Shown here: positions 2,030 to 63,038 of the stretch, one piece after another
How the letters are laid out: the number at the start of each line of letters is the position of its first letter
Position numbering within the stretch: the first letter of the stretch is position 1
Assembly (NCBI GenBank): GCA_950295325.1
Contig: OX485803.1
Location: 62,573,554-62,637,553 of the forward strand
DNA length: 64,000 nucleotides
Source of the DNA: Polytrichum commune
Taxonomy: Eukaryota > Streptophyta > Polytrichopsida > Polytrichales > Polytrichaceae
Direction of reading: 5' to 3'
Position numbers and translations under genes: made by a program
Notes under the pieces: model-generated
Told to the model about the DNA's origin: nothing
What the model saw: the letters and a program-made list of their open reading frames with translations, nothing else
Databases searched by the model: none

Positions 2030-2035
2030 ATATTC

Positions 2036-4852: not shown

Positions 4853-4856
4853 AGTG
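4852..4856. other. target site duplication, left copy (CAGTG)
   Basis: CAGTG lies immediately left of the LTR at 4857 and again at 12083-12087 immediately right of the LTR end. A 5-bp duplication is normal for Ty3/gypsy integration and defines the limits of the nested insertion. Confidence 0.95.
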
Positions 4857-5829
4857 TGTCGCAACCCTTGCTAGGTCCCTTAATAATCTTGCCAATTTTC
4901 GTTTCTACCAAAGGTTACGAGCGCTAACCCTTCGCATTCCGCCATGCTAATGGATAGCTCCTCTTACCCCGGACCAATAGTTCATAGGAGGGAACCAACC
5001 CTCCTACTTTGCTTTCGGGACTCACCCCTTAATCGGTAACCCATTTCCCCAATGTGGACTTCCATCCATGGACGTCCAATCCTATGTTGATCATCGCGTT
5101 GCCGGAGCAACACTACAACAACCCGAACCATACTAGGCAACTATGGCCTCACAATGGGCCAATGCCCATGGAGGCCGTGCCGTTCGGCCTCGGGTGGGTG
5201 AGGCCACACCACCTCACCCATATAAGCCTCTAGGACTTCACGCGGGGCCCCTACCCCACCGTCAACCAACCTCTTGTCTCTCTACCAAGAGTTGGGGCCA
5301 AGTGGACATTTTCCCTTAGCCGCTGGGCCTAGAACCCCCCCAGCAGCTTCAGACCATCATAACTTCCTTGTATGATGTCTGATTCCAGCAACCAACCACT
5401 CCATCTTCATCTACGCTTCACGTAGATGCGGATGGACTCCTCACTTGCCCCATTCGGGCAAGTGGTGAGGAAGTTATGCCTGTTTGAACCTTGGCAGTCC
5501 CGGGAATCACTCCCAGGCACTGCTGTAGCAGGGCGCTGTCCCGGGACAGCGCCCCACTCAAATGGCCATAACTCCTAGCTCACACCTCGGATTGAGGTGT
5601 TCTTGAGCATTCTAGAATCACCACGCCATGAACTACGCATAGCTCATGGCCTCACCCTCATGCCTCCTAGTCTTTGTGGGTGGGAGGCGTTCCCAACGCC
5701 CGGGGCCCTCACCCACACTAGGATCACTTGGGCCCTCTCACCAACGGCGCCACAAGTCCCGGGTGTCACTCCGGGGTCCCCCTTCTGCCCATGGTGTTTC
5801 GGCCACTCCTCATGGAGAGGTGCGCGACA
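4857..5829 (-). repeat. 3' LTR of copy 1 (973 bp)
   Basis: It runs from TGTCGCAACC to GTGCGCGACA on the plus strand. In the element's own orientation a TATA-like CTTATATGGG lies near 5215-5225. The LTR is packed with short inverted repeats: GGACTTCCA-type, CATCTACG..CGTAGATG, CTTGCCC..GGGCAAG (5444-5462), a perfect 22-bp palindrome with half-site GGCGCTGTCCC at 5532-5553, and CACCTC..GAGGTG. Confidence 0.95.
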
Positions 5830-5845
5830 CTCACCCCCACCAAAC
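5830..5845 (-). promoter_or_regulatory. polypurine tract of copy 1
   Basis: On the minus strand the bases just before the 3' LTR read GTTTGGTGGGGGTGAG. This G-rich purine run is where plus-strand DNA synthesis is expected to start. Confidence 0.75.
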
Positions 5846-6639
5846 GGAGTCGATGCCCTCATCGACTATACTCGTAGTCGGCACACCAATTCTCAAGTTG
5901 CCATCCTCTATGGTGCGGCATTGTGTTTACCTTAGGGCGCGACCCCCACAATGCATCTTCAAATTTGGCATAGTCCCAAAGGTGTCGTTCCTAGATGGTC
6001 CGTTAGCGACCTTGGATCTCTCATCCAAGGACCTAACCTACACTAGACCCACCTACTTTGGGACTCACTTGGGTTGCCCCTCCTTTGGGGCCTCCCCCGT
6101 TAGGCTCCACTAGCCTAACGTGACACATCTAGGCGAGACCTCAACGCTTCCACTAAGTTGTCTCGGTTGCAACTCCGAGATGGCTTTCCATTGTTAAGCC
6201 ACGCCTCCATCGCACGGGGGTGATGCCAAGTCCCGCCCGACTCGGTTCCCACTTTGCTCTTTCGAGACATGGGTTCATGACTCCCATGCGCCAACTCTCG
6301 TTAGCTCGCGGGTAGCACTTTTATGAGCACGCGCCATCACCTTGTCCCCGCCCGGACAAGCCCACAACTAAGAAGTTTCTTGGTTTTATCCAAGGCCCCT
6401 CCTAGCCATGGCCCCAATTACTCGGCTTACCCAACCTAGTTTGGCATATCTATTCCCCCTCTTCCACTAACCAAGCACAAGTACAAGACTAGGACCTCAT
6501 CTCGTACTTTTCTCTTTGCACCACTAAAGTTTGGACTTTATTCCCTCAAGCCAAAGAACAAGTGCATGTTGTGGCGTAATTAACCTCGAAGCTAACTGTG
6601 CTACTAGCGTCTCTCCCCCACTAAAGGAGATTGATGTCC

Positions 6640-6870
6640 TCATCAATGCCTACGCTTCATTTTATTGGAATCCTTAGCCTTAATTTCTTCAAAGTGCTTT
6701 ACCAATTCCTTGCCGTTCATCATGTCTCTTGCCGCTACCCAAACGGCTTCTTTCTCATGGTATCCTCACCAATTCACCAATTACTCCTTTGTACATTGTC
6801 TTTCCTTTTCACTTGGGCTTCCTACACTTGAGGATGCCCTCCTACCTCATGTTCCAAATGACGTCCACAA
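6640..6870 (-). pseudogene. chromodomain remnant, copy 1
   Basis: Downstream of the integrase, broken frames contain the integrase C-terminal motif KVHPTFHVSFLKPF (about 6930-6970). After it come pieces matching the chromodomain core seen more clearly in copy 5 (EYLVKW, then GYHEKETAW, then a NELVKHFEE-like end). Chromodomains bind methylated histone tails and define the chromovirus branch of Ty3/gypsy. Here frameshifts and stops break the module. Confidence 0.6.
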
Positions 6871-7072
6871 GGTCGGGAGGTGGCCTAATCACTTGCTTGT
6901 GATCGGGCCACAAGGTGTTCTCCTTAAATGGCTTTAGGAATGAGACATGAAATGTCGGATGCACTTTGATCTTGGGCGGTAATTCCAACTTATACATGTC
7001 CTTGAACATTTGTTCCACAACGGGAAGCGGAGTTCCAATTTTGGACATGTACATTGGAGTGAGGCCTTCCGG

Positions 7073-41399: not shown

Positions 41400-41422
41400 G
41401 GGAAACTCAAGTATGTGAGCGT

Positions 41423-41453
<31 letters not shown>

Positions 41454-42407: not shown

Positions 42408-45400
42408 CTAAGGGCTTGGAGAACATTCCCTATCACTCTCCTCACCCTCATTTGCTTCTAACAAGAAAAGATTTCGTGTTCCACGCGAGAAATGACGAAC
42501 GCGAGGAGGAGATGGGGACTCCGCCTTCGCAAAACAATCCGCCATTGCACTAGCATACGGGGGAAGCTCAAACGGCTTCGGAGGACTTGAAAACATGTCT
42601 CGACGAATGACTGCGACCTCCGCTGGCTCTCTAAACACCCAAGCAAAAGGATTAGAAACATGATGACACTAGAAAATGAGAATTTGAAATAAAAGCAAAC
42701 ATGGCAAAATATAGAAAGCAAACTTACGCACAAAGAAATCCGAATGCCCTCTTGGTCATCTTTTGAGGAGGATCAAAGATAGATGTAGACGGTGCGGCAA
42801 CTGAGCGAGATATACGCGCAGGCTGGGGATCGCGCATGGGGAGTAGGAGTGAATTGAAAATGACGGGGTCACTCTCAAGGGCCACAATATGCCGCTCAAG
42901 GGAGCGACATGCTGTAATCGAACCACCTAAAGCAAAGAGAGGTAAAATGTTAGTATGAAAACTAGTCAAGGAAAAATAATGGAAAATTCAAAGTAAGGAT
43001 GAAGTTGAAAAAGAAGGCGTACCTACACCACACTGCCAGTCCATAATAACATCATTCTTGTCGGTGAGAGTAGCGAGAAGGATGGAAAAAAAACAGGATG
43101 CTTCTCACGGGCACCTCGCCAAGGTACCCCATCACTGCGCATCGTCTGGCTCTTCTCATCGGTGAAGGTATTCAACCATCCATCTCGTTGGAGGTTGTAA
43201 CCATACTCTTGTATGGCCTCCTCCCGCACTCTAAGAACGGAGTTAACACGAACAAGAACTTTGATGTTGAACTTCCGAGTCTGCAACAATGAAAATGAAA
43301 TTGAATTGAAATGAAATGGAATTGAAATTGAATTGAAATTGAAATGATAAGCAATACGGAAGGGGAAGAGAGGGAGACTTGCTTACCACTCCAGAGGGAA
43401 CAACGGGAGATTGGAGGTCTAAATCATTCATTCCAAACCAATCTTCCGCGACGTAGAAGTCATAAGTGTGTGCCCAATCGAAAATACTCCTAGAAACACT
43501 GGCACTCGCACAATGGGCAAGAACAAGGACACCATGATCATAGAGGTTAGATTTCGCAAATGCAAAAAGACACTCATAGTATGATTCATGGAGCTTGTTC
43601 CAAGCAGGAACATCGGTGGAGATGTTCGGCACCGGCAAATTTTCGGGAATGTCGGCGAAGAGCAAATCGAGGCCCTTGTGAGTTGTAGTCGAGGTGTTCA
43701 CACGGGAACGACCTGCCCCAACCTGCAATTGAAACTTCATGAGAAAACAAGAAGGAAAGAAATAAACAAAGCAAAGGAAAAAAAATTGAGAATTGACGAA
43801 GGCAAGTATACAAACCTTGGCAATGAACTCTTGGATGCGGGTATATGCGGGGAGGGGACCTCCGGCAACCTCGGAATCCAGCATTAGTTGAACCATGTCC
43901 ACATTTTCGATGAGGGTAAGCGTGTTAGTGGCATCCGAAGAGGTGGCACTGGTATCCAAGAGAGCGGCCTTCCTCTTGCGAGGCAAAGAGAGGAGAGAAG
44001 TGCCACTATGAGATGGAGTGGCAAGAGATTGTGGATGAAATGCAGATGGAGTAACAGAAGGGGCAAGAGAGGGAGCAACGGAGGGAGCGATAGATGGACT
44101 GTGTGGAAGGGTGGGTGGCTCAACCGGGGTCTTAGAAGCAGACCGAGTGAGAATTTGGGAAGATGCTTGAGTGGCGGTCTTCTTTGCTCTGCCCTTTCTC
44201 CTTGGTGCCTTAGGAGGAGGAGGGGGAAGCTCAACGATGTCAGGGTCCTCCAAGGTAACAATGTTATTATCCAGAGCACTACCCACAAGGCTAGCAAACA
44301 AAGCCTTCTCTTTCCCGGGGACAAATCCTGCAGCACAATCCAAGTACCATCCACCACCCTGCAAGTGCAATTCGGAAAACTTGTTTGTTTGCGCGGTCGT
44401 ATACACGCAGAGGCTAGAAAAAATATTCACCCAGTCCGAGAGGTAGTCCGGCAAGGAAGATGAGGCCAATGCATTCTTCACAACCAATTCTCTCATGATA
44501 TACCTACATGACAAAACAAGAATGTAAGAAAACCAACAAAACGAGCAAGAAATGACATTAAGGAGAGGTGCAAAGTGGAGGATAGATGTATTACCGATAG
44601 GCTACACGCTTGATAGCGAGAGCCTCCTCCTCGAACTCCAAGAGATTATCACCTTTGGCAAATGCGATGTCAGGCTTATCGCCGAGATAAGGCTTGAAGG
44701 CCTTGTCCCAAAGGACAATCCGCCAATGATCAACGTACTCACGAGGGCGCAAGATAGTTTTTGATGCGTCCCAATCAATGTCGACGGAGAGGCTCTCCTC
44801 TAAGGTCTCAATTTCAACCGCGACTTCTTTCTCCAACTGCAGAGAAGGAGATGATTAGATATGAGATAAATGGAATAGAGGAAAATGAAAATGAAGAAGG
44901 CCGAGGAATGGATTTACTTGAGCCCAGAAGGACGCCTTGTGTAGCCAGTCGTCCAAAGCCCTCTCCCTCATAGGCTTGTCGACGGGGAACTTGTTATCTA
45001 ACCTTTCACGAAGGGGGGCGTTCCACCAGTGAAGCCACTTAGCTTTGAACGAAGCTTCGACCGGGCATGTGACAATTTTTTGCAATTTTTCAATTGTCAT
45101 GTCCGTCGAAGAGAACTCATTAAAATGACGGTCAATCTGTGCACAAAATAAAAATGATTTGAGTTCAAAAGAGTAATAGAGTTGAAGAGTGATTTGGATG
45201 AATTGCGTTCAAGAGTGATTTGAGTTCAAAAGAGTACCTCATAAAAGAAATCCTCTCCATTGTCAGGGTGTGCAACGGATATGTACTTCTTAAAAGAACG
45301 GGCCCGAATACTTTTGATTGTCCTCTCCTGGGCCTTGGTCATAACATTCCAAATCTCAGTGGCCGACCTCTCCGCAACGGGTGTGGTCTCACGGTAATGC

Positions 45401-48400
45401 CTCACTGCAAGGTCTGCTTGAGCCGAAATGTCTCTCTGCAAGAAATGACCTTGTGAGTTCATATAATCGGTATGGAAATTATCTATGTTGGAAGCTCTAA
45501 ATGATTGAATGCATAAAACCATACCTTGTAAAGAAACTTAACGAACACATCCGCGGTCAAGGTGTACCAAGTTGGGCGACTCTCCTTTATCTTCTCGCAT
45601 GCTTTGTAGTCAGATGGCGATATAAGATCCTTGAAGGTGGACAACTCTAACCTCCCAAAAGTGCGGATTCGAAGGAGCTTGGCCGGAATGTTTGCCTTGA
45701 CATAATCATGCTCGGTTGACCTGAGAAAAAATATGTGAGGAACGTGAGCTGAAAAGAATGGAAAAGAATTGAAACAAAAATGAAAAATGAATGAAAAAAA
45801 TGAATGAGCTTACCAATTAATGTCGCTCATGGCATTGAGGAATATACCGGTGTATCCTCTAGGGTCAACAACAATGCAATCCACCGAAATATGCCAACTC
45901 TTGTCATCGGCGTGGTGGTTATTGATGTGTCTCCACCAAGCGGTGAGACGATGATTGCCTTCCCAGACGAAGAACATCTTCCCGGCGAAATGTGCAAGAT
46001 CCGGATCCTCCTTGAGCTTGGCGTCAAATTCTGCGGAGGCCTCTTGCCAGAGAGGGCTCCAAGAGGCCATAATGCCAGGGGGAATGGGGAGGTCCACGGG
46101 AACGTCGTTGAAAGAAGACACGTAAAGAACCCGATCACCCTCTCGGTATCCCATTACAAATTCACATTCCAAGCGCTGCACCTCAACCTCACTGATAGGA
46201 CGGACGAGAGGGAGGGCTCTCAAGCGGCATAAAGGAATGGATAAGCGGGACTTACATGTTGGCTTAATCCGAAGGCGTTGGATAACACCAATGGAGTCCT
46301 CCTTTTGTGATTTCCGAAGCTCAAGCTCACACACCACGGGATCCGTGTCGGCAACTGCTTGAACGGCATCTTCGCTCATTGCGAGAGCCTAACAAAAACA
46401 CAAACAATAAAACCATGCTTAGAAAGCTAGAACTCAAAAAACTTGCTTAACAAATTATTCAACAACTATCCAACTTACCTCTACTTGTAATGGGCCCTGC
46501 GAATTGAGACTCTCAACCTGCACAGCTTCAACTTCAACCGCGGGGGCCGCAAGAACAACATCCTCTCCAGATTGGGGTTGCGATTGCGCAACCTGTGAAG
46601 AGTCCATATCCTAAGAACATGGAGAAAATGAGAATTTCACAAAGAAAAGTCAATAACTTCGTAACTATAAAGAAACAAATCCTCACAAAAACAATACAAG
46701 GCCGAGAGCAAACTACAAATGGAAATGGCCGAATGCTAAGTCAAGTGCTCAACTCTAGCACTAACCTACCTACGAATGAGAGGCCTCGGATCCGAGGCCT
46801 CTTTTCCTACCTCCTCCTTATGCACTACCCAAAAGAAAAAGGCCGAGAGAAATCTTATGTGAACATAGCAGTTTGACTTTTCAAGCACATACATTGTCTC
46901 CAAAATGAGGCCTCGGATCCGAGGCCTCTTCACAAACCTCCTACTCATGTAGTACCCAAAACAAGAAGGCTGAGAGCAATCTTACACGAACATAACATTT
47001 TGATTTTTCTAGCATAAAATTGACACAAACATGAGGCCTCGGATCCGAGGCCTCTTCCCAAAACACATACTTATTCACTTCCCAAAACAAGAAGGCCGAG
47101 AAGATTCGAAAATGAACATAAGATTTTCATTTTTCAAGCACATACCTTGACACAAAAATGAGGCCTCGGATCCGAGGCCTCTTCACAAAGTACCTACTTA
47201 TGCACTACCCAAAACAAGAGGGCCAAGCGCATTCAAAAATGAACATAACATTTTAACTTTTCATGCACATACCTTGACACAAAAATGAGGCCTCGGATCC
47301 GAGGCCTCTTCCGAATGCCCCTCCTTATGAAATACATACTACAGAAAATGGCCGAGAGAATTAAAAAATGAACCTAACATTTTCATTTTTCAAGCACACA
47401 ACCTGACTCAAAAATGAGGCCTCGGATCCGAGGCCTCTTCCAAATGCCCCTCCTTGATGATTTTAAAACCTAACCAATTTACTTGTTACATGGCTCACGG
47501 GTGTTCACCCGTGAGGTTCACATTTGATGATGTTCCAGGGGAGGTCACTCGATTGCCAAGTTGCATCACCAAAATGGGTCAAACTTTTCTCAAATTTTTT
47601 TGGGACGTAGATATACATGATATCTATTACGGAGTAAAATATCATGACCAAATTTGATGACCATATTTTTCTAGAAAACATACCATTTCTACCTAGAATG
47701 ACGCAGAATTCAACTAAAACAATTACTAGAAAAAATGAAGATGACAAAAAATTTCAAAAAAATATACAAAAGATATAATCAATAGTTATGAATATAGAGA
47801 AAAAAAATCATAATTTTTAAAAATATTTGACATGGAGACATCTCCCTGTGATGATGCTAAATCCTACCCAAGTTACCTGTTACATGGCCCACGGGTGTTC
47901 ACCCGTGGGGCACACATTTGATGATGTTAAAACCTAACCAAATTACTTGTTACATGGCCCACGGGTGTTCACCCGTGGGGCACAAGGCAGAGAGCAAGGA
48001 ACCAAAAAAGCAGGAAAGTTGACATTCTATTAGTTTGAGAAATCAAGAACCTCACCTCTCTCAAAACCCTACCTTTCACATACTCAAACTTACACAAATA
48101 GGAGGCTTCGGATCCGAGGCCTCTTCCCCTAGCTGGTTCTTATGCACTACAGAAAACAAGACAAGACCGAGAGCAATTGATGTGCACATAACATTTTGAT
48201 TTTTCAAGCACAAACCTACCCACAAATAAGAGGCCTCGGATCCGAGGCCTCTTCCTATGGCTCCCACTTATGCACTACACAATAGAAGAAATGGCCGATA
48301 GCAAGGAATCAAGAAAGCAAGAAAGTTGACATTCCATTAGTTTGAGAAATCAAGAACCTCGCCTCTCTCAAAACCCTACCTCTCACATACTCAAACTTAC

Positions 48401-51400
48401 ACAAACAAGAGGCCTCGGATCCGAGGCCTCTTCACAAACCTCCTACTCATGTAGTACCCAAAACAAGAAGGCCGAGAGTAATCTTACACGAACATAACAT
48501 TTTGATTTTTCTTAAATAAAATTGACTCAAACATGAGGCCTCGGATCCGAGGCCTCTTCCCAAAACACATACTTATTCACTACCCAAAACAAGAAGGCCA
48601 AGAGCATTCAAAAATGAACATGAGATTTTCATTTTTCAAGCACATACCTTGACACAAAAATGAGGCCTCGGATCCGAGGCCTCTTCACAAAGTACCTACT
48701 TATGCACTACCCAAAACAAGAAGGCCAAGAGCATTCAAAAATGAACATAAGATTTTCATTTTCAAGCACATACCTTGACACAAAAATGAGGCCTCGGATC
48801 CGAGGCCTCTTCACAAAGTACCTACTTATGCACTACCCAAAACAAGAAGGCCAAGAGCATTCAAAAATGAACATAAGATTTTCATTTTTCAAGCACATAC
48901 CTTGACACAAAAATGAGGCCTCGGATCCGAGGCCTCTTCACAAAGTACCTACTTATGCACTACCCAAAACAAGAAGGCCAAGAGCATTCAAAAATGAACA
49001 TAAGATTTTCATTTTTCAAGCACATACCTTGACACAAAAATGAGGCCTCGGATCCGAGGCCTCTTCACAAAGCACCTACTTATGCACTACCCAAAACAAG
49101 AAGGCCAAGAGCATTCAAAAATGAACATAAGATTTTCATTTTTCAAGCACATACCTTGACACAAAAATGAGGCCTCGGATCCGAGGCCTCTTCCGAATGC
49201 CCCTCCTTATGAAATACATACTACAGAAAATGGCCGAGAGAATTCAAAAATGAACCTAACATTTTGATTTTTCAAGCACAAACCTTGACACAAAAAAGAG
49301 GCCTCGGATCCGAGGCCTCTTCCCAAAGCTCCTACTTATGCACTTAACAAAACACATTTCCCCCCCCCCGCAGCTTCAGACCTCCATATCTTCCACGTGT
49401 GGTCTCCAAATCTAACAATCAACCACTCTATCGTCATCTACGTGAAATGTAGATGCCGATGGACACCTCACTTGCCCCATTTGGGCAAAAATCAAGGAAG
49501 TTATGCCTGTTTAAACATTCGCAGTCCCGGGAGCCACTCCCAGGGGACTGCTGATCGAGGGCACTAAAAGGAGGCCTCGGATCCGAGGCCTCATTTTCAA
49601 ACTAGTGTACATACTCAAAAACAAGCAAAGTGCCTCATTCATACAAGCTATACGTTGAATCAAAAAACCTCAAGTGGCCTCGGCTGAGAGGCCTCGGATC
49701 CGAGGGCTCACACACAAAGTAATTTACGTACTCCAAACCAACCATAGTGCCTCATCCGTACACTAGTTTTGGAACACATAAAAGAGGCCTCGGATCCGAG
49801 GCCTCTTCTCCTAGCTTCTACATATGCACTTAACAAAACACATTTCCCCCCCCCGGCAGCTTCAGACCTCTATATCTTCCACGTGTGGTCTCCGAATCTA
49901 ACAATCAACCACTCTATCGTCATCTACGTGAAATGTAGATGCCGATGGACACCTCACTTGCCCCATTTGGGCAAAAATCAAGGAAGTTATGCCTGTTTGA
50001 ACATTCGGAGTCCCGGGAGCCACTCCCTGGGGACTGCTGATCGAGGGCACTAAAAGGAGGCCTCGGATCCGAGGCCTCATTTTCAAACTAGTTTACATAC
50101 TCAAAAACAAGCAAAGTGCCTCATTCATACAAGCTATACGTTGAATCAAAAAACCTCAAGTGGCCTCGGCCGAGAGGCCTCGGATCCGAGGCCTCACACA
50201 CAAACTAGTTTACATACTCAGAACCAACCAAAGTGCCTCATAAAGACATGCCTAACCAAGTTACTTGTTACATGGCCCACGGGCGTTCGCCCGTGGGGCA
50301 CAAGGCAGAGAGCAAGGAATCAAAAATGGAAGAAAGTTGACATTCCATTAGTTTGAGAAATCAAGAACCTCGCCTCTCTCAAAACCCTACCTCTCACATA
50401 CTCAAACTTACACAAATATGAGGCCTCGGATCCGAGGCCTCTTGCCCTAGCTCGTTCTTGTGCACTACACAAAACAAGACAAGGCCGAGAGCAATTGATG
50501 TGCACATAACATTTTGATTTTTCAAGCACAAACCTACCCACAAATAAGAGGCCTCGGATCCGAGGCCTCTTCCTATGGCTCCCACTTATGCACTACACAA
50601 TAGAAGAAATGGCCGAGAGCAAGGAATCAAGAAAGCAAGAAAGTTGACATTCCATTAGTTTGAGAAATCAAGAACCTCACCTCTCTCAAAACCCTACCTC
50701 TCACATACTCAAACTTACACAAATAAGAGGCCTCGGATCCGAGGCCTCTTCCCCTAGCTCCTTCTTATGCACTACACAAAACAAGACAAGGGCGAGAGCA
50801 ATTGATGTGCACATAACATTTTGATTTTTCAAGCACAAACCTACCCACAAATAAGAGGCCTCGGATCCGAGGCCTCTTCCTATGGCTCCCACTTATGCAC
50901 TACACAATAGAAGAAATGGCCGAGAGCAAGGAATCAAGAAAGCAAGAAAGTTGACATTCTAGCTATTAGGTTGAGAAATCAAGAACCTCACCTCCCTCAA
51001 AACCCTACCTCTCACATACTCAAACTTACACAAATATGAGGCCTCGGATCCGAGGCCTCTTGCCCTAGCTCCTTCTTATGCACTACACAAAACGAGACAA
51101 GGCCGAGAGCAATCGATGTGGACAAAACATTTTGATTTTTCAAGCACAAACCTACCCACAAATAAGAGGCCTCGGATCCGAGGCCTCTTCCTATGGCTCC
51201 CACTTATGCACTACACAATAGAAGAAATGGCCGAGAGCAAGGAATCAAGAAAGCAAGAAAGTTGACATTCTATTAGTTTGAGAAATCAAGAACCTCGCCT
51301 CTCTCAAAACCCTACCTCTCACATACTCAAACTTACACAAATAAGAGGCCTCGGATCCGAGGCCTCTTCCCCTAGCTCCTTCTTATGCACTACACAAAAC

Positions 51401-53474
51401 GAGACAAGGCCGAGAGCAATCGATGTGGACAAAACATTTTGATTTTTCAAGCACAAACCTACCCACAAATAAGAGGCCTCGGATCCGAGGCCTCTTCCTA
51501 TGGCTCCCACTTATGCACTACACAATAGAAGAAATGGCCGAGAGCAAGGAATCAAGAAAGCAAGAAAGTTGACATTCCATTAGTTTGAGAAATCAAGAAC
51601 CTCACCTCTCTCAAAACCCTACCTCTCACATACTCAAACTTACACAAATAAGAGGCCTCGGATCCGAGGCCTCTTCCCCTAGCTCCTTCTTATGCACTAC
51701 ACAAAACAAGACAAGGGCGAGAGCAATTGATGTGCACATAACATTTTGATTTTTCAAGCACAAACCTACCCACAAATAAGAGGCCTCGGATCCGAGGCCT
51801 CTTCCTATGGCTCCCACTTATGCACTACACAATAGAAGAAATGGCCGAGAGCAAGGAATCAAGAAAGCAAGAAAGTTGACATTCTATTAGGTTGAGAAAT
51901 CAAGAACCTCACCTCCCTCAAAACCCTACCTCTCACATACTCAAACTTACACAAATAAGAGGCCTCGGATCCGAGGCCTCTTCCCCTAGCTCCTTCTTAT
52001 GCACTACACAAAACAAGACAAGGGCGAGAGCAATTGATGTGCACATAACATTTTGATTTTTCAAGCACAAACCTACCCACAAATAAGAGGCCTCGGATCC
52101 GAGGCCTCTTCCTATGGCTCCCACTTATGCACTACACAATAGAAGAAATGGCCGAGAGCAAGGAATCAAGAAAGCAAGAAAGTTGACATTCTATTAGGTT
52201 GAGAAATCAAGAACCTCACCTCCCTCAAAACCCTACCTCTCACATACTCAAACTTACACAAATATGAGGCCTCGGATCCGAGGCCTCTTGCCCTAGCTCG
52301 TTCTTGTGCACTACACAAAACGAGACAAGGCCGAGAGCAACATGATGTGCACATAACCTTTTGATTTTTCAAGCACAAACATACCTTTCCTAACATGTTC
52401 CTAAACCCAAATCAAGACAAGGCCGAAAGCAAGTCAAGCTGATATTCCAAATACTATGAGAAATCAAGGTGATAGAAAGCAAAAACGTTGGCGAACATAG
52501 CTTGGCCGAGATCCCGACACCTTACCAGAATTTGGAGTATGCCCTCCACTGAAGCCCCTATATTGGCGCCACTATCTTCCGAGGTCCCGTCCTCTGTCGG
52601 CGATATTGGAGTGCTTCTCGAATCTCCGAGGTTTACTTGCGCCATTCCTCTCCCGCGGCCACGCCCTCGCCTTGATGTTTGTTGTGTTCCGCCCGCCTTG
52701 CTTCGCAGAAATCTTGAAGCAGGGGTCACAACATCCACACTTAGGGTTTCTGCGCATGGGTCTCCTCCTTCAGCTCTTTCGCGGCCTCCCAACAAATTTG
52801 ATTTCAGATCTTCCTTTGCCGCTTTCCTCTTGGACGCCTTCATTTTTTCTCTTGCTTGAATCGTTGGTTGTCCCGACATCGGTTCTCGCTCTTCTAACGC
52901 CTTCTCAATTTGTTGTGCTACCTCCTTGTTGTCTTCTTCATAGATATTTCCACTATCTCCACTCCCCCCCTCTTCCTATATTTAAGATAAAACAATGTTT
53001 ATAACAATGATGACAAACCATAATATCTAAAAGAAAAGTTGTTTCACAGTTGAATATGTTCTACCATTTTCATTATGTGCTCAAACAACTGAATATATGG
53101 AGAACCCGAAGAATACGTACGACACTTGTAGAGTTTGTCTCTTCGCGTGAGTCCTCTTGGATGCTGTCGTTTCCCAACTCCTCCACTTCTGCCATTGGTT
53201 GCGCTTTACTTCCGTCCGCCTCTTCTACAATCGGTGATAAATGAAAAGGCCGAATCCCACAGTCTAACCTCCACGAAGGTTTCCGCAGGTCCTTTATGCT
53301 TTGGCTCAAATCCTCGGGCGTCCCACGGCCCTCAATTGGCGCTTTCCTTGCCTGTGACTTTTGTGTCCTCACTGTCTTTCTCTTCTTATCAGTGTAATGT
53401 GTAGACGATCGCCTCCTCTTCTTTTTCTTAGATGGTTCCGTTGTCGGAGGTTGTGAATTGCCTATTTCCTTCAT
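42408..53474 (-). CDS. 13-exon transposon-linked gene: ParB-like plus N6/N4 methyltransferase-like protein
   Basis: Exons by splice signals: 53474-53121, 52975-52526, 46610-46479, 46388-45814, 45720-45525, 45435-45238, 45136-44918, 44836-44595, 44503-43816, 43722-43387, 43280-43023, 42926-42728, 42630-42408. Phases agree at every junction and the stop is TAG. About 1356 residues: a basic nuclear-signal-like run (KKKKRRRSSTHYTDKKRKT), an acidic Ser-rich part, a ParB/sulfiredoxin-like segment (near 320-500), an unrecognised middle, a Pro/Ser-rich basic linker, then a beta-class amino-methyltransferase-like domain. One base is missing (or two extra) in a T8 run in exon 11, so this copy may be inactive or the base call wrong. 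It is divergently paired with the transposase at 53794. Intron 2 is 5.9 kb and holds a palindrome array. No transcript evidence is available. Confidence 0.72.
42728..43722 (-). other. beta-class N6-adenine/N4-cytosine methyltransferase-like domain (exons 10-12)
   Basis: Exon 10 has GLDLLFADIPENLP (DIPE at 43642-43653) followed by a helix and NLYDHGVLVLAHC, as in the DPPY motif IV strand and the next GG-strand of amino-methyltransferases. Exons 11-12 have EKHPV, then NDVIMDWQCGVGGSITACR and HIVALESDP. This matches the KP..l..., D.VLDPF.GSGTT and R..G.E.d signature of motif X/I in the N6_N4 family. Motif IV before motif I is the beta-class order. The catalytic DPPY reads DIPE and DPF reads DWQ, so activity is doubtful. 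The T8 frameshift lies just before motif I. Confidence 0.6.
45814..46388 (-). other. ParB/sulfiredoxin-like segment (exon 4)
   Basis: The exon encodes LPLVRPISEVEVQRLECEFV, a beta-alpha-like start. After a variable insert it has KMFFVWEGNHRLTAWWRHI (GNHR at 45948-45959) followed by WHISVDCIVVDP. ParB-type folds have a helix-strand module ending in a G-x-x-R box before a helix and a following strand, as here. The conserved box, spacing and following strand fit; other ParB boxes are weak. ParB-like domains fused in front of DNA methyltransferases are common in phages and bacteria. The assignment is inference. Confidence 0.5.
47494..47979. repeat. second hairpin family in the array
   Basis: 22-nt hairpins with 10-bp stems and a TT loop at 47494-47515 (arm CTCACGGGTG), 47888-47909 and 47958-47979 (arm CCCACGGGTG). 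A fourth at 50276-50297 has arm CCCACGGGCG. The right arms carry the matching changes. They share the context AAGTTACxTGTTACATGGC. Confidence 0.88.
48535..49319. repeat. sub-array with 126-129-bp period
   Basis: Seven consecutive cores at 48535, 48662, 48788, 48915, 49042, 49169 and 49298 with nearly identical spacers (AAGTACCTACTTATGCACTA). This is local homogenisation, presumably recent unequal exchange. The same period is seen at 46780-47417. Confidence 0.9.
49361..50050. repeat. two captured chromovirus LTR fragments within the palindrome array
   Basis: 49361-49566 and 49846-50050 are diverged copies of about 200 bp of the chromovirus LTR (equivalent to 5335-5540): CAGCTTCAGACC, ATCTACGT..GTAGATGCCGATGG, CACTTGCCCCATTTGGGCAA, GGAAGTTATGCCTGTTT, AGTCCCGGGA. 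They sit 487 bp apart and were duplicated together with neighbouring palindromes. The LTR ends are absent, so these are not solo LTRs. Confidence 0.85.
50420..52287. repeat. higher-order repeat, 128 + 179 bp, six units
   Basis: Core spacing alternates 128, 179, 128, 183, 128, 179, 128, 179, 128, 179, 128, 179, giving a unit of about 307 bp. The long spacer carries about 51 extra bases including AAGTTGACATTC and CAAGAACCTCACC. The repeated 63-codon minus-strand ORFs here are by-products of the repeat. Confidence 0.92.
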
Positions 53475-53793: not shown

Positions 53794-55064
53794 ATGGCTT
53801 CCACCTCAATTCTTCCTCCCGTCTCTGAGATGGCCGAACTTCGTTCACATGGCATCGGGGTCCCTATTATATTCCCCATTGGTGCACAAGGTATTGTTGT
53901 TGTCTCGGAGCTTCATCTTAGCATTAGGTTCTCTTTGAAAGCTAGTACAATATGGGTAGAGCGTGAGATCTACCATCCTGATACTGGATTGCTCGTTCAT
54001 ACCTTCCATGAGACCTCCAAGATAACTGACAATGGCAATGTAGTGTGGGAGCTTGGCGCGGGAAAGTATAGGGTTTGTGGTTGGCCAGATTCTCAGATGG
54101 AAGTGTCAACAGAAATCCTTCCTCCTCTTCGATCATCCACTGTTGCCTTTAGCACACCCCCCGTAATAAGCGTCAAGACCGAGCCTGGTGTAGACAACGT
54201 TATAGACTTGTCTGATTCTTCGAGTGAAGATGTACCAGTGTATAAGGTTGCTGTCCATGATTCCCCTCATTTGTTTCCCTTTGCATCCTACATAACGCCT
54301 TCTCCATCTAGCTCTGTCCCTTCAACTCCTTCGGTCCCTACGTCTAAACCTCCTCAAACTATTGTTCAATGTCTTCGTCGTCTTGGCTCTATGCCCGGTA
54401 GTAAGAACGTCCTCAAGAAAATAGATTACGATAAAATCAAAATCCAAGAAGTTAATCACCTTCCCCCTCGTTTCGATGGCACCCAGTTATTTGTCCTCCC
54501 TGCAGCAGAAGTCTCTTCATCTCAAACCAGGGCCAAGTCGTTGGACGGCATAGACAAGCAATATGATGGCCATGTTTGGACTAAGACTCAAACCACCAAC
54601 ATTACAAACGACGTTGGCCTTGCATTTCGTTCCTCTACCTGTGTTGGCCATCTCCAATGCCAAAACCCGAGTTGTGATTACCTTCAACGCGCCCATCGTA
54701 CCTCTAAGGTCAATGACACAGAATTTGAAGGTTTCACTAAAGATCCTTTCCGTCTCTCTGGCATTGTGCCATCCGGATCTACTCTTGTCTGCAGGATCTG
54801 TAAAGAGCCTCCCAAATGCATTGCACTATGCGAGGCCAAAATCTTCTACGTCCATGGGAAGGAGTCATCCCAAAGAGCCTGCATTCATCTCGGTTCTCAT
54901 CAACATCCAGTGAAGGTTGGAGACTGCAGAGACAGTCGGAAGCGTATCAATGCACTTCTTGAGGAGCACGTTGAACGTACGCCTCAAGCCACCCACAGCA
55001 AGATCGTCCTTGAAGCTAGCAAGGACATTGTTGGTGAGTTTCTCCTTTCTGGCGATAATGACAC
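53794..55064 (+). pseudogene. MULE-type transposase, N-terminal part (copy A, truncated)
   Basis: Start chosen at ATG 53794 (MASTSILPPVSEMAELR), which aligns with the second copy's MASSSSVPCLSEMAELR. The 423 codons are open and parallel the first 40% of copy B: an N-terminal beta-rich region, an acidic VIDLSDSSSED stretch, then a Cys/His module (CVGHLQCQNPSC, VCRICKEPPKC, HLGSHQHPVKVGDCRDS) resembling WRKY-GCM1 zinc fingers, and ASKDIVGEFLL. It is cut at 55064 by an LTR-like insertion; the catalytic domain is absent. Similarity to copy B is clear but many residues differ, so this is another subfamily member. Confidence 0.8.
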
Positions 55065-57258
55065 TGTGAGGCCAAACCCCCCACCCTTAAGCGTCCGTAG
55101 TCCGAGTAGTGGGTTTGGGCTCACATTCCTCCGCGGTAGTGGATTTGGACTTGGATGAGTCCATAGTGCAAGGTTCACCCTTCAAGTGGTCTTGGATTTA
55201 ACTGGAATTTCACTTTTAACAACTCAATGTACGATTTCAATACGTATGTGGAGAATACACAAGTTAACTATGTTATTTTAACCTCCTTATGCTCGGGTGC
55301 TATTTTGTCTTTGTTTGCTTCTAACGTCCATCCGGCTGCTTTAGCTACACAAGCCCTTAAGGATATCCCTCTCCTAAATGGAGTGCGTGCCGTTGACTCT
55401 ATACTACCACTTGAACTATCACTTGTGTATTCCGTATCGCTACTATAAGAGGTCTCACTTGGTGTCTCCATACCGTACATAAGCCTTTAAGTATTAAGAA
55501 ATACTTATGTGACTTATGTCAATCTCTCCCTCGCACCTTTGGTCTTTGCTTCCTTTGTCTTGCCATCGCGAGAGTGCTCCACATTCTCCATTAAGTTGTG
55601 CACGTGGTTTATTTTTAAAGAGAGGATGCAAGTGTTAAAAAAAACACTATTCTCTATAGTCAATCTCAAATACATTTACTTGTGAAAGCCACACATAATA
55701 CTAACTAGCATAATGTAACTAACTACTTGTCTATGAGCTAATTAGGTAGGCTATCTACTAAGCTCCTTCATGAACCCATCTCTTTACTTTCTAATTACAT
55801 AAACCTAGCTCCTTCATAAACCCAGCTTCTTAGCTTCTAACTAAACAAACCCAGCTCCTTCATAAACCCAGGTCCTTCATAAACCCAACTCTTTACTTTC
55901 TAACTAAACAAACCCAGCTCCTTCATAAACCCAGCTCCTTCATGAACCCAGCTCCTTAGCTTCTAACTAAACAAACCCAGGTCCTTTATAAACCCAGCTC
56001 TTTACTTTCTAACTAAACAAACCCAGCTCCTTCATGAACCCACAACTTTGTAGTTGTAATCCCCAACTACCTCACTAATTATTCAAGCCCTTAACTAATC
56101 TTCCTACCTAATTTCCCTAATTCTACTAACAACCCCTTTCTAATCACACAATTCTTCTCTAATCCTAAAATCCTAAAATCCTAGAGAGGAGAGGGGGAGA
56201 GAGAATTTCCTAACTTCACTAAGACTAACTAATCCACACAAGTATATTTTTGCACTCATCACAACATCAAGTGCTCAACTCTTAAACATGGAACTTGCAA
56301 CCACGTGTATTCAAAACATGAACTTTAAGTACCACAAATTGGAATCATGAATTAACTTTAAAATCCTTCACGTCAACACTAATTCTACCAAGAGGTCAAG
56401 CCCTCTTCAAGGCTAACAAGCCTTGGCTCTCAAACTAAAAACTAAGCACACACATGTGCTCCAATATGGCTTCCCACACCCACACTTATAACTCGTGGGG
56501 TGCCTTGGAGCACAAAGGAAAGAGAGGATGAGTGAGGGAAGAATGAGGGATTATATAGTAAGCTTGAGGGGGTGAGCACCCTCAAGGCTCACGATAAGCC
56601 CTTGAGATTTCCTCCTACTTAGTAGGCGCCAATCCTATCTTCTAAGCCTTCCTCCCTCAAATGATCAACAAGGATCCTAATTCGAACATTTAACTAGCCT
56701 TGGCTTTCTACCTACCACACTTTACCAAACTTGGGATGCTTCAACCCAAACTTAGCCTCTTTCGCTTTCCGCCGCCATAACTTTCTCCCCTTACTTTCCC
56801 AAATCGTCGCTCACCACTTAATTCAAACCACGATGCTTAACTCGTGATTTGATTGGTGCTTTGAGAATTTGCTTATCCTCCACCTTGCATTCTTCCTTGG
56901 GCCTTCCCCATTAAGTGGCCATGATGAGGTGGTCCACTTGTGCGCTCCATGTGATCCTCCATTCATCCCAATTCGAATGCACTTGCCTCTTGAGTCACTT
57001 TGGTTGTCTCCATCCATTTGTACTAGCCTACTCACTAACTACTCAATCCAAGTTCTCCTTACCTATCCTCATTCACTCAAATCCTTCCGAAGGTAAAAAC
57101 ACAATAACAACTCACATCCTAGTCTCTTACAACATGGTACTTCTAAGACTAACATTTCACTCTTTTTATATTTTTGTGAAGTAACATGCTACTTCAAAGT
57201 GCATCAACTAACGTTTCAAGGGTCTAAGACTAAATGTGGGCACCCTTTTGGGCTCACA
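55065..57258. mobile_element. 2194-bp solo LTR-like insertion at the junction of two MULE copies
   Basis: Starts TGTGAGGCC and ends GGCTCACA, so short inverted termini with TG..CA. The flanks GACAC (55060-55064) and GGCAC (57259-57263) are similar but not identical. Left of it is transposase A; right of it is intron 2 of accessory gene B. It contains a minisatellite of AAACCCAGCTCCTTCAT-type units (about 55790-56045) and a possible TATA (GATTATATAGTA, about 56550). No coding region is convincing; a 70-codon minus frame at 55268-55480 is unsupported. Confidence 0.62.
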
Positions 57259-58229
57259 GGCACCTACTTCTGATGTTAAGCAAACAAGAAATGCCGAGAG
57301 CAAACTGATGAGGCTTAACCTCCTAGTTTCTTAATGGCCTACTTCTGAACTTAACAAAACTTGAAAGGCCTAAAGCAAACTGATGAGGCATAACAACCTG
57401 ATTTCTTAATGGCACCTACTTCTGATGTTAAGCAAACAAGATATGCCTAAAGCAAACTTATGTGGCAACACCTTCTGATGTCTCAAGCGCCTACTTCTGA
57501 ACTTAACATTTCTTGAAATGCCGTGAGCAAACTCGAAACCCTACATCTCACATACTCTATGCCGTGAGCAACCCAAGTGAGCATTTCATTTAGTCTGAGA
57601 TAGCAAGAACCTCACCACACTCAAAACCCTACCTCCCACATAGTCACTAAACCCAAATCAAGACAAGGCCGTGAGCAACCCAAGTCCACATTCCATGTGC
57701 TTTGAAAATCAAGAACCTCACCTCACTCCAAACCCTACCTCTCACATTCTCACTCAACCCAAATCATGGCAAGGCCGACAGCAACCCATGTCCACCTTCC
57801 ATGTACTTTGAAAATCAAGAACCTCACCTCACTCCAAAGCCTACCTCTCACATTCTCACTCAACCCATTTCAAGCCAAGGCCGAGAGCAACCCATGTCCA
57901 CCTTCCATGTACTTTGAAATTCAAGAACCTCCCCTCACTCAAATCGCTACTCCTCACATTCTCAGTAAACCCAAATTCAATTTGATATTCGATGTACTTT
58001 GAGAAATCAAGGTAATACAAAGGCCGACATGTAGTTTTACCTCACCTGGTTCACTTACCCTAAACATACCAAGGCCGATAGCCGTAGTCATGTAGACTAG
58101 TCTTTTACCTTGATATCAACAGTAACCCTCGGCCAAATGGAGGCCTCGGATCCGAGGCCTCCTTCCCCCACCCTCTCATTATGTGCACTTCTAAACCAAC
58201 ATAGCATTCCCGAGAGCCCGACACCTTAC
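57259..58229 (-). repeat. intron 2 remnant of accessory gene B with one palindrome
   Basis: 57259-57540 has three diverged units around CACCTACTTCTGATGTTAAG. 57590-58010 has about four units of 105-115 bp (CAAGAACCTCACCTCACTCC, CCTACCTCTCACATTCTCAC) related to the long spacer of the copy A array. The palindrome with half-site GAGGCCTCGGA sits at 58140-58161. So the same intron carries the same repeat family but only one palindrome. Confidence 0.75.
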
Positions 58230-59165
58230 CAGGATTTGGAGTATGCCATCCACTGAAGCCCCAATATCCGCGCCGCTATCTTCCGAGCTCCCGTCCTCTG
58301 TCGGCGTTATTTGAGTGCTCCTCGTGTCACCGAGGTTGACCTGCGTTTTTCCTCTCCCGCGGCGACGCCCTCGCTTCGATGTCTCTTGTGTTCCGCCCAC
58401 CTTGCTTCGCAACAATCTTGAAGCAGGGGTCACAATATCCATATTTAGGGTTTCAGTCCCTGGGCCTCCTCCTTCAGCTCTTTCGCGGCCTCCCAGTAAA
58501 TTGGATTTCAGATCTTCCTCAGCCGTTTTCCTCTTCGACGCCTTCATTTTTTCTCTTCTCTGAATCGTTGGCTGTCCCGACAGCGGTCCTGTCTCTTCTA
58601 ACGCCTTTTCAGTTTGTTGTGCTACCTCCACGTTGTCTTCTTCTTCGTAGCTATTTCCACTCTCTCCACTCACCCCTTCCTCCTATATTTTAGACATAAC
58701 AATGTTTAGGGCAATGATGACAAACCATAATATTTAAGATAAAGTTGTTTCACAATTCAATATTTTCCTCCATTTTAATTGTGTGCTCAAACAACTGAAT
58801 ATATGGAGCACCCGAATAATACGTACAACACTTGTAGAGTTCGTCTCCTCGCGTGAGTCCTCTTGGATGCTGTCATTTCCCAACTCTTCCACTTCTGCCA
58901 TTGTCTGTGCTTTACTTCCGTCCGCCTTCTCTACAATCGGTGATAAAAGGAAAGGCCGTATCTCACAGTCTAGCCTCCACGAAGATTTAGGATGCCTTAA
59001 ATCCTTGGGCGTTCCACGGTCCTTGATTGGCGCATTCGTTGACTGTGTCTTTTGTGTCTTCACTGTCTTCCTCTTCTTGTCTGTGTAATGTGTAGACGAT
59101 CGCCTCCTCTTCTTCTTCTTTGATGGTTCCGCTGTCGGAGGTTGTGAATTGCCTATTTCCTTCAT
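58230..59165 (-). pseudogene. accessory gene, first two exons (copy B, truncated)
   Basis: Exon 1 is 59165-58827 (113 codons: MKEIGNSQPPTAEPSKKKKR start, basic run, then ELGNDSIQEDSREETNSTSV). Exon 2 is 58682-58230 (151 codons: NSYEEEDNVEVAQQTEKALE, a KASKRK basic patch, SEDSGADIGASVDGILQIL end). Both introns have GT..AG borders and phase 0, as in copy A. The protein is close to copy A over this part. The remaining eleven exons, including the ParB-like and methyltransferase-like parts, are missing to the left, where an insertion lies at 57258. Confidence 0.78.
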
Positions 59166-59363: not shown

Positions 59364-62300
59364 ATGGCTTCCTCGTCTTCTGTGCCTTGTTTGTCAGAGA
59401 TGGCGGAGCTCCGTGCCAATGGCTTTGGAGTGCCCATCCTCTTTCCTATAGATGCAGACGGATTTGCACATGTCTCTTCCCTCCACCTTAGCATCAGGTT
59501 CTCCTTGCAAGATGGTTCAATCTGGGTCGAACGCGAAATTTATGATCCCCTTACCTCTTTGTTGTCCTTGACCATGCGTGAGAATCGCATTCTTGCCGAC
59601 AACGGATCATTTGTGTGGAAACTTCCCGCAGGTAATTACAGAGTCTACGGACTCCCTGAATCTCGGCCACACGTTTCCACCGAGATCCGTACCCCTCCTT
59701 ATTCTTCCGCTTCCACGTTCAACACCCCTCCCGCCGTTCGTGTGAAGATTGAACCTGGTATTCATACTGTCATACATCTTTCTGATTCATCTGATAGTGA
59801 TGAGCCCGTTCATTCCACTCCTAATATCGTGCCATCTTCATCCTCCTTCGGTCCCCCCTCCTTGTCCCCCCCCCCTGTGCACCTTGATCCTATGTGTCAT
59901 CTTCCCCCATCCCCTACCAAACACACCCCTTCCATTCTTCAATGTCTTCGTTCTCTTGCTTCCATGCCCGGTAAGAAAAACATCCTTAAGAAGCTAGATT
60001 ATGACACCTTGCGAACTGAAGAGGTGAATTTTCTCCCCCCTCGATTTGATGGTGATCTTATGTTTGTCCTTCCCCCAGTCGGTGTCTCTTCCTCTCATAA
60101 GAAGGCCCAATCTATGGACGGCATGGACAAACGCTATGACAGCCATGTTTGGACTAAGACCCAGACCACCAATATCACCAATGACATGGACCTTGCTTTT
60201 CGCTCCTCCATTTGCGTTGGCCACCTCCAGTGCCAAAATCCTCAGTGCGATTACCTACAACATGCTCATCGGACTTCCCCGGTCAATGATACTGATTTCG
60301 ACGGATTCACCAAGGAGCCATTCCCCGTTGGTGGACCCTTGCCTTTGGGATCCACTCTAGTGTGCCGGATATGTAAGAACCCTCCCAAATGCATTGCACC
60401 ATGTCCTGCCAAAATCTTCTACGTCCACGGCAAAGGCACCACTCAGCGTGCCTATATTCATCTAGGCAACCATCATCATCCCGTCAAGGTTGGCAACTGC
60501 AGAGATAGCCGCAAGCGCATCGACGCCCTAATCGAGGAGCACGTCGAGCGAACGCCCCAAGCCACTCATAGCAAAATCGTCCTCGAAGCCAGCAAGGACC
60601 TTGTGGGTGAGTTCCTCCTCCGCAATGATAGTGATCCTCATCACATTCTCTCCTTGGAAGAACTTGAACCAGTTTTTGATCGTTGCAAGGAGTTGAATTC
60701 CCCCCACCTCCGTAACAAGGTTACCAATTTCAAATACTTACGTAGGTTAGGGGTTATGGATGGAATTGCCAAACTTCGAGGTGTCAGCAACTGGGCCTAT
60801 GTCCAGCGTAATCAATTCCTGGGCCAGGGTGATGATACGGACAAAGTTTTCGTTTTCAAGATGTCCGAAGTCGGCCCTGGTAGTGGGGTCGACTTGGTTA
60901 AGCGCATGCAACCTGGTGGGGATCTCGAGCATGCTTGGATGATGTCTGACCATGTCAAACGCGTTTCCAAGTGGACCACCATGGCCTGCCACGTATACGA
61001 CGGTACCTACCAGCGCGTCATGACCATCGCTTGCTGCGACTTCCAATCCGAAGACAAGGATGCTCAAGTTCTTTTTTGGCATAACCTCAACCACGTCATG
61101 GCCCGCCATGGATTCCCCAAGCCCCACTTCAAAGGCTTCATGGCCGACAGTGCCCAAGCCAATTGGAATGCCGTGAGGATTGTTTACGGGTCCGGAGACC
61201 CAAAGGTTCCCATCGATGGGCGTGAGAGAACGTGCTACTTCCATTGGACCCAGTCTTTGGAGAAACACACCAAGCTATATATCAAGCATGACTTGCAAGA
61301 CCAACACAAGCGTCTCTGCCTGCAGTATCGCGACGCATCCTCTATGCTCAAGGCGGAAACGAGGTACCTCGCCATCAAGGCCTGGTGGGCTTCGTCTAAC
61401 TGCACCTCAGATGAGGGGCTCAAACACCTTCAGCTTTGGCTGGCCTTCTGGCACTTTCGTTATCGACAATGGGGTGGCTTCATGGAATTGGTGTGTCTTT
61501 ATTGTTATTGCTTTTTGTTTTGTGTTTTATCTTTTTTTTCAAGTTTTTCTTATTTCTTGCACACCCTTTCCATTTCATAGGAGAAAATCATGACCGCCGA
61601 GGAATTTGCACAAATGCCCAATTGCAACCTTGCCGAATCCATTCACAACAAATGGCTCCAAGCGTCCGGCAACAAAGGTGGCGATCTATACGTGGCCACT
61701 ATGGATGACTATATTCGAGCTTTCCTCCAAGTTGTGGCGTACCATCAGTTCCTTAAGGGTGGCATTGGGGGCGATGGCCCTAGCAAAGAAGAACTCAAGC
61801 TTCGTGCCGCTCAACGTCGTGCTCAACGTATTGGTGACCCCACTGTCCTGCAGAAGGTTCTTCTCGACATGCCTGGCGGAGAAGAATTTTGTACTTGTAG
61901 TCCCCACCTTGAGGGTGCCGAGGTCTTTGGCTCCCAGAAACGCAAGCCTGACACTCCCATTGGAGCTGACGATGAAACCCACCGCCCTGACACCCTCAAC
62001 TTCTCTCGCCCTCGTGTCGCACAGAGAACCACAAGATCTCAAGTTTCACCTTTGCCTACCATCGTCGAGGAGTCCTCCCCGACATTGCTCGAGGTTCCAC
62101 CACCCCCTTCCACTGGTCTGGATTTTTGCCGTGTCACTGCTGTCCAAGAATCTGAAGTGGACGAGAAGCTCTGGCATATTGCTCGTGTTCCTTACAATTC
62201 CTCAAAGGCATGTTGGGCCATGCATGCTGTCACCAAGAAGAAATGCACTGCCAAAATCGTCTCCAATTCCAAGAGCACCCCTGCACCGGCTTACCTTGGA

Positions 62301-63038
62301 GTTTGGAACTATTACAAATTCACCACACCTAAATCTGAAAAGTTCTTTTTCTGCCCTGACGACATTGAGCGTTGTGTGAAAGGTTCACGTCGCAAGTGGG
62401 TCGACAAATTATCTGCTGACCAAGAACGACCTTCGATTCCTCCCGTGTGGCCTGTCAAGCTTGGTACCAACCTCACTCGTCCAGAGATACTAAAGCTTGA
62501 AAATGCCGGATTCCAGCTCCCGCAGAAAGAACGCATCACGCCAACTCGCCTCTTCAACACTTCAGCTCCTCCCCTTGACCTCTCCGGAATAGATGTTCCT
62601 GCCAACCCCGACTCTTATCCTTCTTCCAGGCAGTCCAAGGCTACGAGACGGTCTGCTACTGCACCGTCAACAAAACAAATGCAGATGGTCGCATCTGCAC
62701 GAGCTATGGACGGGACCATTTTGAAGGTTACTATGATTCCACGCCCTGGATTTGGTTGCGTGCTTACGTTGCAATCCAAACCTGCACCTACACAATCTAT
62801 TTACCAACTGACAGTCAGTTCCTTGCCTGAGTGTAATTGCCCGGCCTTCAAGGATATGATATCAAAGTTTGGCCGGAAACGAAATTCGTTTTTGCACTGC
62901 AAACACCTGTACTTCATATTTGTTAAGGTGTCTAATGCAGACCCTGAAGTTGATTTGTTCATACACGCCCCTACCTTTAGCTTCAATGAAGTCAAACTCA
63001 TCCTAGAAGGAGGCCTCTTGACACAATCTACTTCCTAG
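59364..63038 (+). CDS. MULE-type transposase with WRKY-GCM1-like and SWIM zinc fingers (two exons)
   Basis: Exons 59364-61490 and 61581-63038 (90-bp GT..AG intron, in frame), about 1194 residues. The start MASSSSVPCLSEMAELR was chosen by alignment with copy A. An acidic stretch lies near 135-150. A Cys/His module (CVGHLQCQNPQC, VCRICKNPPKC, HLGNHHHPVKVGNC) spans about 280-380 and probably binds element ends. The catalytic region has DGTYQRVM (Asp546), FMADSAQANWNAV (Asp595), the C-x2-H motif CYFHW (Cys624, His627) and, after the intron, NLAESIHNKW with a candidate Glu. A SWIM finger follows near the C terminus (CNC at 62832-62840, CKH at 62898-62906). The open frame has no stops, so the gene may be functional. 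MULE transposases cut and paste DNA. Confidence 0.85.

Follow-up and report, generated by a model that had tools for sequence, protein, structure and literature searches.

As described in PMC12477816, the Ectocarpus element Sola1-1_Ec32 carries, opposite its transposase, a gene that joins a ParB-like part to an N4/N6 methyltransferase part, and its product is a protein of 1104 aa. Similar cases are cited there for green and red algae; nowhere in its main text is there a word beginning with "palindrom". According to PMC5735166, the motifs of the VANDAL/VANC system of Arabidopsis are spread by tandem repeats, introns included, and the motif of VANC21 is YAGTATTAY. VirB is described as an anti-silencer of the ParB family; its binding site is palindromic and resembles parS, and the protein spreads and relieves silencing (PMC10653881). 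The ParB-methyltransferase architecture is not new in transposons: the original prediction knew of no such gene fixed beside a MULE transposase, and this claim of novelty is weakened by the gene opposite a transposase already published for Ectocarpus (PMC12477816). In the open-licence PMC literature, we found no report of palindrome arrays with ParB-methyltransferase genes and, with the terms queried separately, none that places such a gene next to a MULE-like transposase.

We analysed a stretch of 64,000 nucleotides of Polytrichum commune (C1:62573554-62637553; the window in what follows) and searched its genome (407.8 Mb, 64 contigs). We propose that the gene described below is an accessory gene carried by a large MULE-like family of DNA transposons, and that it makes part of a self-recognition system resembling ParB/parS or VANC, probably with an anti-silencing effect, where both the binding and the effect are ones that we infer; to the two statements taken jointly we give an even chance. 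The ParB-methyltransferase-like gene lies on the minus strand and comprises 13 exons separated by GT-AG introns, from a first ATG at 53474 to a stop codon that ends at 42408:

53121..53474, minus strand: exon 1, with a basic low-complexity N-terminus; second copy at 58827-59165, protein 82% identical
52526..52975, minus strand: exon 2; second copy at 58230-58682, 79% identical
46611..52525, minus strand: intron 2 (5.9 kb), containing a tandem palindrome array
46479..46610, minus strand: exon 3 of the gene model
45814..46388, minus strand: exon 4, with the ParB-like block containing WEGNHRLTAW
45525..45720, minus strand: exon 5, with homologues in C1a and C4a (50 kb each, around L005 on contig C1 and L004 on contig C4) and in L020
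45238..45435, minus strand: exon 6 of the gene model
44918..45136, minus strand: exon 7 of the gene model
44595..44836, minus strand: exon 8 of the gene model
43816..44503, minus strand: exon 9, with the GGGWYLD block and then a proline/serine-rich linker
43387..43722, minus strand: exon 10, with the methyltransferase motif IV-like strand LLFADIPE
43023..43280, minus strand: exon 11, with the PWRGAREKHP block, a frame slip in the T run 43086-43093 and the beginning of motif I
42728..42926, minus strand: exon 12, with the remainder of motif I, plus SLERHIVALESD
42408..42630, minus strand: exon 13, including the stop

The gene is real, and its ParB-like and methyltransferase-like parts lie within one gene model. 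All the motifs quoted in the original prediction were present: GNHR in exon 4, DIPE in exon 10, DWQCGVG|GS across exons 11 and 12, and ALESD in exon 12. The exon joints are in phase, but exon 11 itself changes frame, which corrects the earlier statement that the model joins in phase throughout. In this exon, one frame is open through the conserved PWRGAREKHPVFF / RSDGVPWRGAREKHPVFF and IMDWQCGVG is found in another frame, the slip being of one base at the run of eight T at 43086-43093. An intron spanning the T run was rejected, as no fitting GT-AG was seen by eye. In the related copy in L014, the stretch matching exon 11 is a single frame. The window copy would thus carry either a one-base lesion in exon 11 or an assembly error.

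A different reading splits the model into two genes, one of exons 1-2 and one of exons 3-13, with the array serving as promoter region of the latter instead of being an intron. There is an ATG at the fourth base of exon 3, and a repetitive intron of 5.9 kb is unusual next to the other, short introns; however, good-looking splice sites flank intron 2 on both sides and are in phase, and we regard the two-gene structure as fairly unlikely.

We examined the methyltransferase-like part against known families. The window copy reached E 0.12 and 12.7 bits against PF01555 (N6_N4_Mtase), where the cut-off is 26.7, and E 0.006 against the solved DpnA. The Pfam search of the genome gave five N6_N4_Mtase matches, all above the family cut-off. 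Three of them fall on C10 and C12, which are short contigs; the other two are in 577-aa ORFs on C1 (L005) and C4 (L004), which are near-identical copies and count as one group. The three matches on C10 and C12 (L001-L003) are strong, lie on contigs of 47 and 61 kb, and probably represent bacterial sequence within the assembly. The L005 and L004 ORFs align to exons 9-12 with 25% identity, and the blocks GGGWYLD, VDLIIVDIP, PWRGAKEK and GxGxS...A...ERHI come in the same order in L005, L004 and the window gene. A three-sequence profile (window, L005, L004) found DpnA with E 1.7e-4, via the motif I region, while the motif IV stretch aligns with that of DpnA and scores only -1.8 bits alone. The Pfam match of L005 covers positions 1-216 of the 221 of the N6_N4_Mtase profile. 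The proposed relationship to amino-methyltransferases is thus supported by the related ORFs that pass the Pfam cut-off and by the profile that finds DpnA, and the predicted position of a motif IV-like strand before motif I, which is the beta-class order, was seen in both the window gene and L005.

The catalytic motif IV of amino-methyltransferases is [DNS]PP[YFW]. We read DIPE in the window copy, DIPY in L005, DIPD in L004 and VIPE in L020/L014: none of them fits this pattern, and the proline-proline core is missing in all four copies read. The changed catalytic residues that had been noticed in the window copy therefore recur in all four, and because motif IV lacks the proline-proline core in these copies, ordinary catalysis appears doubtful across the family, beyond the window copy alone.

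The main rival to the anti-silencing reading is a protein that is still active as a DNA methyltransferase: having bound the palindromes, it would methylate adenine or cytosine-N4 at or near them, so marking its own element and recruiting or escaping host factors. This is what the authors of PMC12477816 proposed for the Ectocarpus Sola-1 gene; in our data, DpnA, which is named as a methyltransferase in the PDB, is closely matched by the motif I region and by the R/H..ALESD strand, and the motif IV of L005 ends in an aromatic residue (DIPY) in an ORF that passes the Pfam cut-off. Against it, motif IV has I in place of P at its second position in 4/4 copies read, with E, E, Y and D as the last residues, and the domain is frame-broken in the window copy, so that self-marking of this kind seems unlikely to us.

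A methylase domain of another class was found elsewhere in the window. Pieces of a gypsy-type reverse transcriptase, RNase H and integrase lie at 1286-4870 on the minus strand, and the ORF at 3581-4870 of this element contains a C5 cytosine DNA methylase domain (PF00145, E 4e-11). In this it is similar to gypsy elements with a DNMT that have been reported from the charophyte Klebsormidium (PMC5890265).

As for the ParB-like part, five exon 4 sequences (that of the window and four others, 31 to 66% identical) keep the pattern IPLCR...VRP...GY...KMF..W(D/E)GNH...AW, with W(D/E)GNH present in 5/5 aligned copies and the R of GNHR in 4/5. The ParB/sulfiredoxin fold has a conserved G-x-[HR]-R nucleotide-binding block, and GNHR-type blocks themselves are not the site-reading part of ParB. 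The predicted ParB fold is plausible: the GNH(R) block is conserved, but searches of Pfam, PHROGs and PDB sequences gave no ParB match and only weak unrelated ones (best E 0.011). A single-sequence AlphaFold2 model of exon 4 gave no usable fold (pLDDT 37.8). We take the ParB assignment as a motif-based lead that is likely, because the layout matches the published ParB-methyltransferase architecture.

The transposase gene starts 320 bp from the ParB-methyltransferase-like gene and runs in the opposite direction (head to head), and a second copy of the pair is present in the window:

53794..55062, plus strand: truncated transposase, belonging to the same element as the 13-exon gene, 64% identical to the full one
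58230..59165, minus strand: second copy, exons 1 and 2 only, head to head with the full transposase at 59364-63038
59364..63038, plus strand: full-length transposase of the second copy, with two exons in phase at 61490/61581 (junction placed by eye)

The full transposase contains MULE-like D, D, C..H and E residues plus SWIM-like CxC...CxH residues, a combination which we take to be the signature of a MULE transposase. The Pfam search gave no transposase family at E up to 10, and only UL17 (E 0.047). The MULE class of the original prediction is thus plausible, with the motif residues in its favour and the lack of a Pfam transposase family against it. MULE elements have terminal inverted repeats and a short target duplication. 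We compared the left flank with the stretches tried and found inverted matches of 13 bp at best (E 0.012), and one of 35 bp in L016, overlapping a (GAGCGGA)n repeat; these comparisons did not reveal the true ends of the element. We discounted the inverted (GAGCGGA)n stretches, at 41412-41446 and in L016, as probable simple repeats.

The two copies of the window differ in their divergence from one part to another. Exons 1 and 2 of the first and the second copy gave dN 0.09 and dS 0.31 (dN/dS 0.29), and the stretch between the start codons is 88% identical where aligned, whereas the N-terminal parts of the transposases (53794-55038 vs 59364-60626) gave dN 0.24 and dS of about 2.1; in both comparisons, dN/dS is far lower than 1. 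Because the transposase halves are far more diverged than the accessory-gene ends, the elements look like mosaics, in which the accessory-gene and transposase halves would differ in age. Between the two transposon copies, at 55761-56042, we also found a tandem array with a 17-bp unit, AAACCCAGCTCCTTCAT.

When the genome was searched with its own exon 4, 1282 first-look candidates came up, of which 150 were scored and all 150 are listed as matches, 47 of them at an identity of at least 95% (the window's own included) and the lowest at 59%, which argues that exon 4 is not a product of chance. The predicted linkage with a transposase was recovered in three further places, C1a, C4a and L022. In C1a and C4a, a ParB-methyltransferase homologue stands head to head with a transposase homologue, whose first-exon pieces are 38–52% and 36–49% identical, respectively, and whose second exon is about 42% identical. 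In L022, where the accessory gene is represented by exon 1 only, this exon (32%) is head to head with a transposase that is 73–88% identical over the aligned pieces and from which 336 second-exon residues, most of that exon, are absent. The MULE-like residues are kept in the aligned parts of all three, except for the C of C..H in C1a. Another ParB-methyltransferase copy lies 20 kb left of the window (L020/L014), with an exon 4 that is 39.5% identical and contains two stops; a comparison of the transposase with 50 kb at this place gave nothing significant.

Intron 2 (46611-52525) is a tandem array with several unit lengths, and we recorded the following palindromes:

46780..52287, strand not applicable: 22-bp palindrome GAGGCCTCGGATCCGAGGCCTC, 34 copies, 32 exact and 2 with one mismatch
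58140..58161, strand not applicable: single exact GAGGCCTCGGATCCGAGGCCTC palindrome beside the second copy
47494-47515, 47888-47909, 47958-47979 and 50277-50298: interrupted palindrome CCCACGGGTG..CACCCGTGGG, found by eye

The count of 34 leaves out two overlapping partial matches with 4–5 mismatches, and the number of GAGGCCTCGGATCCGAGGCCTC copies expected by chance was 0 in 100 shuffles. Within the 22 bp of the 34 sites, 0.27% of the letters deviate from the column majority, in contrast to 23–53% in the six 22-bp blocks that flank them (three per side), a deviation that is partly due to the array mixing several unit types; some copies are embedded in clearly different flanks. The interrupted palindrome and its variants recur in intron 2, and two occurrences were found in L046 too. 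Two 205-bp stretches of the array (49361-49565 and 49847-50051) are ~80% identical to a repeat recurring in the left part of the window (e.g. 5335-5525), so intron 2 appears to hold a duplicated segment in common with another element.

The genome as a whole contains 1903 exact copies of GAGGCCTCGGATCCGAGGCCTC and none of its reversed control. The listing gives 50 of the 1903 sites, which all fall within the first 14 Mb of C1, and 49 of these lie 392–7406 bp upstream of one of three listed exon 4 copies (98, 81 and 95% identical); the upstream regions that hold them make up about 0.2% of the 14-Mb stretch, and the 49 sites are effectively three clusters. The remaining listed site (C1:13839475) has no listed exon 4 nearby, and the sole other listed exon 4 of that stretch (C1:49663, 66% identical) has no GAGGCCTCGGATCCGAGGCCTC site near. 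Among the close-copy loci examined, 30/30 (the window's own included) carry 2–7 exact copies in the 1.5 kb before exon 4.

Other element groups carry other palindromes. In L053 (exon 4 66% identical), we found 15 sites of the type CCTCTCGATTCCGAGAGG, with arms around an asymmetric 4-base centre, in ~200-bp repeats before exon 4. L022 contains 12 sites like ACCCTCTCGGATCCGAGAGGGT, 5 of them exact, at about 218 to 2610, adjoining exon 1 and the transposase (two of the 14 CCGAGA matches there are non-palindromic and were left out). The outline CTCG....CGAG is common to the palindromes of the window, L053 and L022, while the outer half-sites differ. In L020, about 15 exact or near copies of GGTATTGGCGGYRCCGCCAATACC occur at about 5491-6904 and exon 4 follows at 7613; TGTTTGTGCGCTGGCGCACAAACA occurs, exactly or partially, at 5 sites in C1a and 3 sites in C4a, between the two divergent genes. 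The palindromes of these two groups (39.5% and 32–33% identity, respectively) are unrelated to that of the window. Family-specific motif arrays are thus present in non-coding parts, with five array types in five groups, a pattern that may reflect the co-evolution of palindrome and protein. When two of the perfect palindromes were compared, both stayed perfect with 5/11 half-site positions differing; we rejected such a symmetric difference as evidence, since it is a property of every pair of perfect palindromes that differ. Downstream of the L020/L014 copy, the region L014:2809-7801 has several open frames and contains 7 copies of palindromes with a ACGGACGCGCGTCCGT core and arms of up to 23 bp.

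These palindromes could also be binding sites of the transposase, or structural or replication elements, with the ParB-methyltransferase gene merely adjacent. Transposases bind repeated sites in their own elements, and the arrays of C1a and C4a do lie between the two divergent genes. In L022, however, the transposase is closely similar to that of the window, yet the palindrome differs and so does exon 1, a comparison of one case which suggests that the palindrome type goes with the ParB gene and not with the transposase; moreover, the array is internal to the gene pair. We find transposase sites quite unlikely as an account of the arrays.

We also examined the selection acting on the gene. When the exon 4 of the window was compared in turn with that of 29 close copies (29 of the 30 close loci, leaving out the window's own; the comparisons are not independent), the pooled values were pN 0.0061, pS 0.0323 and pN/pS 0.19, and a stop was found in one of the 29. 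Compared with L053, dN was 0.23 and dS was saturated, and the exon 4 copies in L020, C1a and C4a carry stops. Exon 4 and exons 1-2 are under purifying selection. Close viral or phage relatives were rejected, none being found by searches that reach near relatives only. That the gene is a captured passenger in decay, to which the frame slip of the window copy and the exon 4 stops in some copies could point, is very improbable, because the selection test contradicts it for the close group, and the pair is kept across elements that are about 30% identical.

In the anti-silencing reading that we prefer, the protein would combine a ParB-like DNA-binding part with an amino-methyltransferase fold whose ordinary catalysis has probably been lost. 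Dimers of it would load on the palindrome array of the element that encodes it and then spread or cluster there, and the element would be kept transcribable against host silencing, as VANC does in VANDAL elements and VirB does against H-NS. Each protein would serve its own element group, because the groups carry different palindromes. In favour of this reading are the near-invariance of GAGGCCTCGGATCCGAGGCCTC among variable flanks and the tie of its sites to exon 4 copies, together with the purifying selection, the abnormal motif IV, the group-specific palindromes and the precedents of VANC and VirB. Against it, the transposase or a host factor could be what binds the palindromes, the ParB fold is without a library match, GNHR-type blocks are not what reads the site in ParB, the window copy is frame-broken, and the distant groups have few sites and exon 4 stops. 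The guess in the original prediction that the protein became a silencing antagonist gains support from the palindrome arrays. The fuller version, a ParB/parS-like system of the transposon family's own in which protein and palindrome co-evolved and gave each group a private protection from silencing, we put forward tentatively, as somewhat less than an even prospect. The arrays supply candidate binding sites and natural specificity variants, so that binding, self-marking and anti-silencing are directly testable.

Compared with the DpnA-type, beta-class amino-methyltransferases (PF01555; PDB 5hek, 5hfj), the window gene is alike in the motif I region, the downstream strand and the order of motif IV before motif I, but its motif IV departs from [DNS]PP[YFW]. 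It shares with Sola1-1_Ec32, as described in PMC12477816, the presence of a ParB-like and a methyltransferase-like part in one predicted protein, the strand opposite the transposase and the location inside a DNA transposon; unlike that element, to which it is likened by its description, it combines a MULE-like transposase, an abnormal motif IV and intronic palindrome arrays. ParB/parS and VirB have in common with it the palindromic site, while spreading and the relief of silencing are theirs (PMC10653881) and palindromes alone are seen here; those systems are bacterial, whereas the relation proposed here rests on the GNH(R) block as recognised by eye. As in VANDAL/VANC (PMC5735166), an accessory protein of a transposon is accompanied by family-specific short motifs that form tandem repeats in introns and other non-coding parts, but YAGTATTAY is no palindrome, and the likeness drawn here is one of layout. 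If true, the system would be a second answer to the problem that VANC solves, independent of VANC as far as is visible, and would show a segregation-type protein of bacteria put to use in a eukaryote.
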